Source: Pseudomonadales bacterium
GTDB lineage: Bacteria; Pseudomonadota; Gammaproteobacteria; Pseudomonadales; Azotimanducaceae
Assembly: GCA_028280225.1 (NCBI GenBank)
Contig: JANQMF010000015.1
Coordinates: 1-58,667, forward strand
Direction of reading: 5' to 3'
DNA length: 58,667 nt
The first letter of the stretch is position 1. The number at the start of each line of letters is the position of its first letter. The notes under the pieces were generated by a model that saw nothing but the letters and a program-made list of their open reading frames with translations, had not been told where the DNA came from and ran no database searches. The translations under genes and the position numbers were made by a program. Of the stretch, positions 46,177 through 47,774 are shown in pieces.

Positions 46177-46494
46177 GTGGCCAACATAGCAATCGCAGAA
46201 CAACTCAAGATGCTGTCAAATGATCGGCGCATGCAGATTGTCGAATGGCTGCGGGACCCGGAGAAATACTTCCCGCCGCAACGGGACGGGGATCTGATTG
46301 AAGATGGCGTGTGTGTGGGCTTGCTCACCAGGAAGCTGGCGATCAGTCAACCCTCGGTGACCGCGCACATGCGACAGCTTGAACAGGCAGGTTTAGTGAC
46401 CGGCAAGCCAATCAAAAACTGGGTTTTCTACAAGCTTAATCAGAATGCAATAAACGAACTTCTGGCAGCGCTTAGAGAAAGATTAGGTGATTGA
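46177..46494 (+). CDS. ArsR family winged-helix regulator
   Basis: The 105-residue protein starts at GTG 46177. The winged helix has I-A-E-Q-L-K-M-L-S-N-D-R-R-M-Q-I-V-E-W-L, then L-A-I-S-Q-P-S-V-T-A-H-M-R-Q-L as recognition helix, and W-V-F-Y-K-L-N in the wing. The single Cys (D-G-V-C-V) does not form a known metal site, so metal sensing is not indicated. It is divergent from the PhzF-like gene and upstream (131 bp) of the putative selenoprotein, on the same strand. Confidence 0.88.
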   Translation: MANIAIAEQLKMLSNDRRMQIVEWLRDPEKYFPPQRDGDLIEDGVCVGLLTRKLAISQPSVTAHMRQLEQAGLVTGKPIKNWVFYKLNQNAINELLAALRERLGD

Positions 46495-46625
46495 ATCCAA
46501 CCGTTTTGGGCTGGATATAGACGGGCGATAGCCCCACTCACCATCTATGGACCCAACCACCACTATCGCGTTAGAGTTTTACGCCTACCGGATTTTCCGG
46601 CTCAATGTTTTCCGCAGGAGGAGTC

Positions 46626-47774
46626 ATGCCGCAAGTCAGCGAAACCATACCTGATGCGTTACAGCCGCGTGTACAAGCAGCGGTAGCGTGGTTCAACAGG
46701 TCAGCGGCATCTGCTGAAGACGAATTTAAAGTGACCGGTATCCTGGATGCGGATGAGGCATTAAGTGGATCGGACGAGCTGAGGCTCATCATGTGTGGGG
46801 GTGATCGCTGCGAGCAACGCAGCTTTCGGGTTACGGGAACCGTGGATTCCTGGCAGATTGAATTCACCGATACAGCCCCGTTGGCTCAAGGTGAAAAGCC
46901 ACAGGCAGAACTGGACCCGCCGCCGGGAGTGCGCGGTAGCTGGCTCGACCAAAAACTGTCGCAACACGCATTTGTTGTGCTGCTTTTCTACCGGGGTTTC
47001 TGGTGACCTCCCTGTCGCGCCGAGTTACGGGGCTACATGAACGAGGGCGTGGTCGAGGAAATCCGCGCCGCGGGCGGCGAGATTTATGCCATCACCAGTG
47101 AACCGCAACACCTGGCTGATGAGGCGCACGCACACTGGGAACTTAACTTCGAGAACATCGGCGATCCGCACCAGGAAATCCCGAAAACGTGCAGCGAGCG
47201 TGGCTGGCTCACGCTCTATGCTAACAAAGGCAACCTGGAGTTCCTGCGCAGGGGGGCTAAATGGAAGGTTGAACACCCGAAAGGCTACTTCCAGCCGGGT
47301 GTGCTGGCGCTGACAGAATCGGGACGCGTCCTGTACCGCTGGCGCTCCGTCCCGTCAGCGGCAAACCTGAACGGCACGGTTGCGCGACCGACCGCTCGGC
47401 ATGCATGGGGTGCGATTGAAAGATCACTTGCGGCTGGAGACACGGCTGCGGACGTTGCGCACGATGACCAGCCCGAGATCGACAGCCCACCACCGCCACG
47501 CCCTCTTTTTGTGGCCGCATTGATCGCAAACGGCTGGTTTGTAGGAGTAAAGTCTTTTGCGTACTCACCCGGCGTAGATTCGGTCCCTAAGCGGTTTGCA
47601 GTTGCTTATTCCCGCTGGTTGCTCTTCATCGCGGTCTGGGCCGCCGCGTTGTTCTTCTTACCCCTGGCGCCGGTTGCATTCGCCTTTGCGTGCTGGGTAG
47701 CTTGGATTGTCAGAGATACCCGGCGCACCCTCGGCGGCCTGGGCGTACAGCAGGAACTCAAAGCGAACCGGTAG
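46626..47774 (+). CDS. Putative selenoprotein: peroxiredoxin-like protein with U-x-x-C and C-terminal membrane anchor
   Basis: One frame from ATG 46626 to the stop at 47772-47774 is broken only by TGA at 47004-47006. Reading that TGA as selenocysteine gives 382 residues with Sec127. The centre is a thioredoxin-fold strand F-V-V-L-L-F-Y-R-G-F-W, then Sec-P-P-Cys130, then R-A-E-L-R-G-Y, the normal surroundings of the redox cysteine in AhpC/TSA-type proteins. Downstream domain residues E-I-Y-A-I-T-S-E-P, F-L-R-R-G-A-K-W-K-V and K-G-Y-F-Q-P-G-V-L-A-L continue the same fold. Residues 1-105 are an unrecognised N-terminal domain with Cys57/Cys62; 330-362 form one or two membrane helices. AGGAGGAG at 46616-46623 sets the start. 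Sec incorporation is inferred; the sel genes are not in the window. Confidence 0.8.
47004..47039 (+). promoter_or_regulatory. In-frame TGA with SECIS-like hairpin
   Basis: From TGA 47004-47006 onward, 47011-47022 folds against 47028-47039 with nine pairs in twelve positions (mismatches at 47019/47031, 47016/47034 and 47012/47038). The loop is AGTTA (47023-47027) with G at the second place. The loop begins 16 nt after the TGA, close to the E. coli fdhF arrangement. No tool was run; pairing was done by eye. Confidence 0.6.

Follow-up and report, generated by a model that had tools for sequence, protein, structure and literature searches.

The gene at 46626-47774 (+) of the 58,667-nucleotide stretch of Pseudomonadales DNA analysed here (the window) very probably encodes a selenoprotein in which UGA codon 127 (47004-47006, +) would be read as selenocysteine (Sec), and the product is most likely a membrane-held oxidoreductase of the thioredoxin fold with the redox motif U-P-P-C. 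The preliminary description of this DNA had proposed the Sec reading, and our analysis supports it through a TGA at all the sites that we could read in relatives (63/63), a hairpin past the codon, the selA, selB and selD genes and the presence of Cys at this position in distant relatives. We favor a selenium protein over a broken gene because every readable close relative has the same UGA. As had been described, and as direct translation agrees, the frame is unbroken on either side of a single TGA and gives 382 residues, with FYRGFW-U-PPCRAELR around codon 127, a resolving Cys130 at 47013-47015 and a terminal TAG at 47772-47774; the gene limits come from direct reading and from the alignment of relatives. 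The ATG at 46626 is preferred over the ATG at 46605 used in the mechanical ORF list because a ribosome-binding site, AGGAGG (46616-46621, +), read directly and also chosen by the start scan, lies 4 nt upstream of it. That same list cuts the gene at 47006 and restarts it at 47037, which is the split that had been foreseen for gene callers. Standard ORF calling thus halves the protein, and a redox protein conserved in one bacterial family is probably misannotated as a result.

The state of codon 127 was followed across relatives. Searching 195 of them uncovered 41 places in 33 genomes that match at E 2.5e-50 or better, with a TGA inside every one. Two of these, L089 and L090 (the latter with ambiguous bases), were left out of the alignment and examined separately, and both have the TGA; the 39 aligned members all have TGA at codon 127 and share C57, C62 and C130 without variation. 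A profile search of 206 genomes of the same bacterial family (E 1e-15) gave 64 places in 53 genomes, 63 of which contain TGA, and codon 127 is TGA in each of the 63 that cover the site: the 39 aligned, the two left-out copies with eight new loci, and 14 of the last 15 loci. The 64th place (G995:C566) is a contig-edge fragment whose match begins at profile position 136, the site being at position 121. The extraction patterns for the first 39 and the next 10 sites demanded a stop at the site; the searches for profile matches and places, as well as the pattern for the last 15 loci, demanded none. When this last pattern was run over all loci collected by then, it returned only TGA, in 96 occurrences that include recounts of the same gene from overlapping loci.

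Samples of 369 genomes of the class and 398 of the phylum yielded no further full-length match at E 1e-10, and no full-length homologue with Cys was found in the 195 relatives, the 206 family genomes or these class and phylum samples. In three distant single-domain relatives the Sec position is occupied by Cys, within WCPWC or WCPYC. The expectation that this column would hold Cys or TGA only was borne out, with TGA throughout the family and Cys in the three distant relatives. The 39 sequences form two clades, both of which are present in seven genomes. Eight named loci come from Gammaproteobacteria MAGs, one labelled K189A clade and one Pseudomonadales; judging by the sample names these eight would be marine, and the source bacterium is probably marine as well. 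Among the copies left out, L089 (G027:C233) carries the motif W-U-R-P-C and, in frame, two additional TAG codons, and has the look of a paralogue in decay.

A SECIS-like hairpin (47017-47033, +) follows the TGA and is supported by codon constraint and covariation. Over the whole gene, same-codon use peaks at codons 126-136, where it reaches 1.82 times the expected value (mean 0.98, sd 0.135, 354 overlapping windows). The six-position stem sets in 10 nt past the TGA and the 5-nt loop 16 nt past it, the loop being AGUU(A/G) except in one of the 39 members, which has AAUUA. Pairing holds in 96.4% of 222 cells and 20 cells are changed on both sides, versus 7.1 in shuffles; in neither case was any of 500 shuffles as high, and sliding the stem by 1-3 columns leaves at most 50% paired. 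All 6 positions pair in 33 of the 39 aligned relatives, and RNAalifold, unguided, recovers the same stem. Compensatory changes are found at two of the six pairs only, and the counts of pairs changing on both sides and of pair types are not above shuffles (419/500 and 464/500 as high, respectively). We also looked at 22 sequences outside the hairpin definition, which are relatives and hence not independent: 20 pair fully, two pair at 5 of 6 positions and all 22 carry the AGUU(A/G) loop.

The bSECIS model, as given in PMC13188914, has a loop of 3-9 nt with a G within its first two positions, located 16-37 nt after the UGA, an MFE of at most -7.5 and an upper stem of 4-16 bp. The window copy agrees with it in loop and spacing (AGUUA at 47023-47027, 5 nt, G second, 16 nt) and in energy (-15.2 kcal/mol for the 48 nt starting at the TGA); its stem has five pairs broken by one G.G mismatch, and the upper part does not reach 4 uninterrupted pairs. 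Folded alone, this copy does not outdo shuffled sequence (z -0.40), nor does its longest uninterrupted stem stand out, with 978 of 1000 shuffles doing as well. The stem couples residues 132 and 136, Phe or Ser132 occurring with Ser136 and Leu or Arg132 with Gly136. Ala132 is the exception, being found with Gly136 across a G.G mismatch, in the window too, and once with Ser136 across G.A (L155). Here a coding-region RNA hairpin appears to limit the choice of codons and also, at residues 132 and 136, that of amino acids. An Rfam scan of 46900-47200 returned only a sub-threshold microRNA match, and a microRNA identity was rejected (16.7 bits vs a cut-off of 80).

The protein itself appears to be built of three parts. 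The N-terminal domain (about residues 1-104, limits by judgement; 46626-46937, +) contains the invariant C57 and C62 and has model block means of 72-89 pLDDT over residues 11-80; it gave no match in Pfam or NCBIfam and none among PDB sequences at E 1. The second part, with W-U-P-P-C, is a redox domain of the thioredoxin/AhpC-TSA fold (about residues 105-269, limits by judgement; 46938-47432, +), matching PF00578 over residues 115-185 with 33.6 bits vs a curated cut-off of 26 and, weakly, NF040769 over residues 111-242. Of the 18 members scanned, all reach E 0.01 or better with PF00578 and 11 do so with NF040769. The aligned members share an invariant P224, which we take to be the thioredoxin cis-proline. 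The third part is a C-terminal hydrophobic helical hairpin (about residues 329-362; 47610-47711, +), a predicted membrane anchor: hydropathy reaches its maximum of 2.38 there (19-residue window at 332) and the weak structure model has helices at 320-344 and 347-373. The strong hydrophobicity of residues 329-362, together with the basic residues that flank them on either side, leads us to infer a two-helix anchor with both ends cytoplasmic. The AlphaFold model, for which 9 close sequences were used, has a mean pLDDT of 58 and, being weak, served for rough domain limits only; Foldseek gave no match for it at E 0.001, and a PDB sequence search with the family profile gave none at E 0.01. Weak Pfam matches in the hydrophobic end (FA_desaturase in 3 of 18 members, DUF3040 in one and TctB in one) were taken for chance.

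The preliminary description had placed the protein in a peroxiredoxin-like family and named AhpC/TSA and SelL-like proteins as carrying Cys or Sec at this position. Two refinements apply. The best NCBIfam match, SelL-related NF040769 (positions 21-158 of the 173-position model), scores 23 bits vs a cut-off of 120, which leaves the window protein outside that curated family; SelL is known for UxxU. The motif is UxxC and not the TxxU of Sec peroxiredoxins, and "peroxiredoxin-like" therefore describes the fold and says nothing for peroxidase activity. The peroxidatic motif of peroxiredoxins is TxxC, and neither TxxC nor TxxU was found, the window having W-U-P-P-C and the 39 aligned members UxxC. 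The WCxxC of ResA/TlpA thiol-disulfide oxidoreductases aligns with WUPPC at scores far below cut-offs (PRK03147, 19.4 bits; 4nmu, E 0.14); in the weak ResA alignment (E 0.14) WCKPC faces WUPPC, which would make Sec the leading, attacking residue of a CxxC-like motif, with Cys in its place in ResA. The anchor of ResA is N-terminal, whereas that of the window protein is C-terminal.

Selenoproteins of PF00578 with UxxC are already known: table 1 of PMC13188914 lists Sec peroxiredoxins with TxxU, and Prx-like thiol:disulfide oxidoreductases with UxxC/UxxU under PF00578, and "Prx-like 1" was counted in marine samples (PMC2398784). The window protein is like the Prx-like thiol:disulfide oxidoreductase selenoproteins of these two sources in its AhpC-TSA domain and in having Sec in UxxC; it appears, going by their descriptions, to differ in adding the N-terminal C57/C62 domain and the C-terminal hydrophobic hairpin. 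Compared by description only, the GOS fusion selenoproteins (Prx-like 3/Unknown_3 and Unknown_2/Prx-like 2; PMC2398784) are alike in joining a redox selenoprotein domain to a conserved-cysteine domain. According to PMC12013277, Cys homologues by now seem to exist for every known selenoprotein; here the isolated redox domain complies, whereas the whole protein is so far, as sampled, without a Cys version. What appears new so far is the three-part architecture and the full-length family seen only with Sec; we did not find them in the open-licence literature searched and do not claim their absence from print.

The alternative that survives best is a true selenoprotein whose activity would be that of a peroxiredoxin-type hydroperoxidase instead of a thiol:disulfide oxidoreductase, which we regard as possible, if unlikely. 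The Pfam AhpC-TSA match over cut-off would fit it, as would the best Foldseek matches of the weak model, to peroxiredoxin Q/BCP and all at E above 0.001. The invariant P224, presumably the cis-proline of thioredoxins, argues against it. So does the redox motif, as UxxC is listed for Prx-like thiol:disulfide oxidoreductases and TxxU for peroxiredoxin in PMC13188914.

For the thiol:disulfide oxidoreductase that we prefer, SelB acting on the hairpin past the UGA would bring Sec-tRNA(Sec) to codon 127, a step strongly supported by sequence; the mechanism past the selenoprotein reading is much less certain. The C-terminal hairpin would hold the protein at the cytoplasmic face of the inner membrane, Sec127 would attack a disulfide or peroxide substrate, Cys130 would form the resolving selenenylsulfide with Sec127, and electrons might be given back either by a thioredoxin or by the Cys57/Cys62 pair. 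One could go further and propose a Sec-only, three-part, membrane-anchored family in which Cys57/Cys62 and Sec127-Cys130 form one intramolecular electron relay. No full-length Cys version of it would exist, selenium would be indispensable to the architecture, and the lineage would have switched a good share of its thioredoxin-fold proteins to Sec; taken as a whole, this larger proposal is rather doubtful.

Reading the TGA as a true stop would give a short protein to Trp126, with or without a second protein from 47037 or a 3' half in decay. This is how the mechanical ORF list has it, and of the 32 mechanical ORFs in the window that have 250 codons or more, 8 end in TGA. A true stop is nevertheless very improbable, as the two halves of the gene are alike in being under purifying constraint: eight pairs were compared, and in the four with unsaturated dS, dN stays below dS before as well as after the TGA. 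The dN/dS values for L017 vs L018 are 0.079/0.611 before the TGA and 0.103/1.083 after it, and the mildest, 0.065/0.183, lie upstream of the TGA (L083 vs L036). The restart ATG at 47037 is also poorly kept, the aligned codon being ATG in only 2 of 39 members and GTG in five, and a stop at this site is further opposed by the TGA in all 63 places read and by the invariance of C130 in the 39 aligned members. Judged from sequence, the conserved TGA and the constraint on both its flanks are together more than chance.

As to the selenium machinery, the window forms contig C51 of an assembly of 4.44 Mb in 242 contigs that is 96.7% complete. The assembly contains selA (477 bits, over cut-off) with selB directly following (339 bits, over cut-off), and the selB frame leaves the end of contig C49 after 382 residues (G000:C49:10936); a search for the selB tail in the rest of the assembly did not find it (best E 0.2). 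SelD, also over cut-off, forms the second half of a 714-residue protein (L052:4931-7075, -) whose first half matches pyridine-nucleotide-disulphide oxidoreductases (Pyr_redox_2, 83.8 bits). We take this protein for the NADH dehydrogenase-SelD (Ndh-SelD) fusion reported as common in marine samples in PMC2398784. The search for tRNA-Sec in this assembly gave 10 matches up to E 10, none over cut-off, and the eight that were made into loci are other tRNAs by ARAGORN. The preliminary description had pointed to the sel genes as a check, and selA, selD and selB (cut by the contig end) are indeed there, while tRNA-Sec was not found in this assembly. As the same-genus genomes G008 and G004 carry a tRNA-SeC, anticodon tca, within about 5 kb of selA, an assembly gap would be the simplest reason for the unfound tRNA-Sec and selB tail.

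Among the 33 protein-bearing genomes, tRNA-Sec is over cut-off in 23 and is not in the other 10, this genome included. A selA match at E 1e-40 was obtained in 29 of the 33, and the four selA-negative genomes (G010, G013, G015 and G033) are all among the ten without tRNA-Sec; three of these four are 58-73% complete and G010 is 96% complete in 520 contigs. Because selA is common in the bacterial family (97 of 120 genomes overall), its co-occurrence with the protein says little.

The gene neighborhood was explored as well. No conserved neighbors were found: 14 window ORFs were without a tblastn match (E 1e-5) in 52 stretches with flanks of mostly 1.5 kb a side, and when the ORFs of the window and 37 loci were compared all against all, the window shared, in the 25 largest groups, only the two halves of the selenoprotein gene and one antisense ORF. 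A gene for an ArsR/SmtB-type regulator (57.9 vs 55 bits) is located just upstream at 46177-46494 (+) and has no match in the compared flanks. We do not propose it as regulator of the selenoprotein gene because no conserved neighbors were found in these short flanks.

A variant code or a suppressor tRNA that puts Trp or some other ordinary residue at UGA would leave the frame open too, a reading that we consider extremely unlikely. The same 8 of 32 long mechanical ORFs end at TGA, the selA, selB and selD matches are over their cut-offs, and homologues have Cys at the site, not Trp. The other AhpC-TSA genes of the genome also stand against it. A search with PF00578 gave 19 places at E 0.001 or better (18 over the curated cut-off), of which seven, including that of the window, have a single in-frame TGA and none has TAA or TAG. 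In all seven the TGA sits at the redox site, within W-U-P-x-C in six (the window among them) and Y-U-G-C in one. A one-base sequencing or assembly error, which the 242-contig draft might allow, has a negligible probability, the relatives having already refuted it: other assemblies show this TGA at 62 further places.

Thioredoxin-fold selenoproteins appear to be numerous in this organism. The six further AhpC-TSA places with a redox-site TGA are L103, L104, L105, L109, L111 and L115; when the other TGA genes were compared with shuffles, between 6 and 134 of 1000 were as good, which is modest evidence for each gene taken singly. Many relatives also have weaker matches with one TGA, the frames being roughly 165-190 aa or 385-410 aa long, and these may be other Prx-like selenoproteins.
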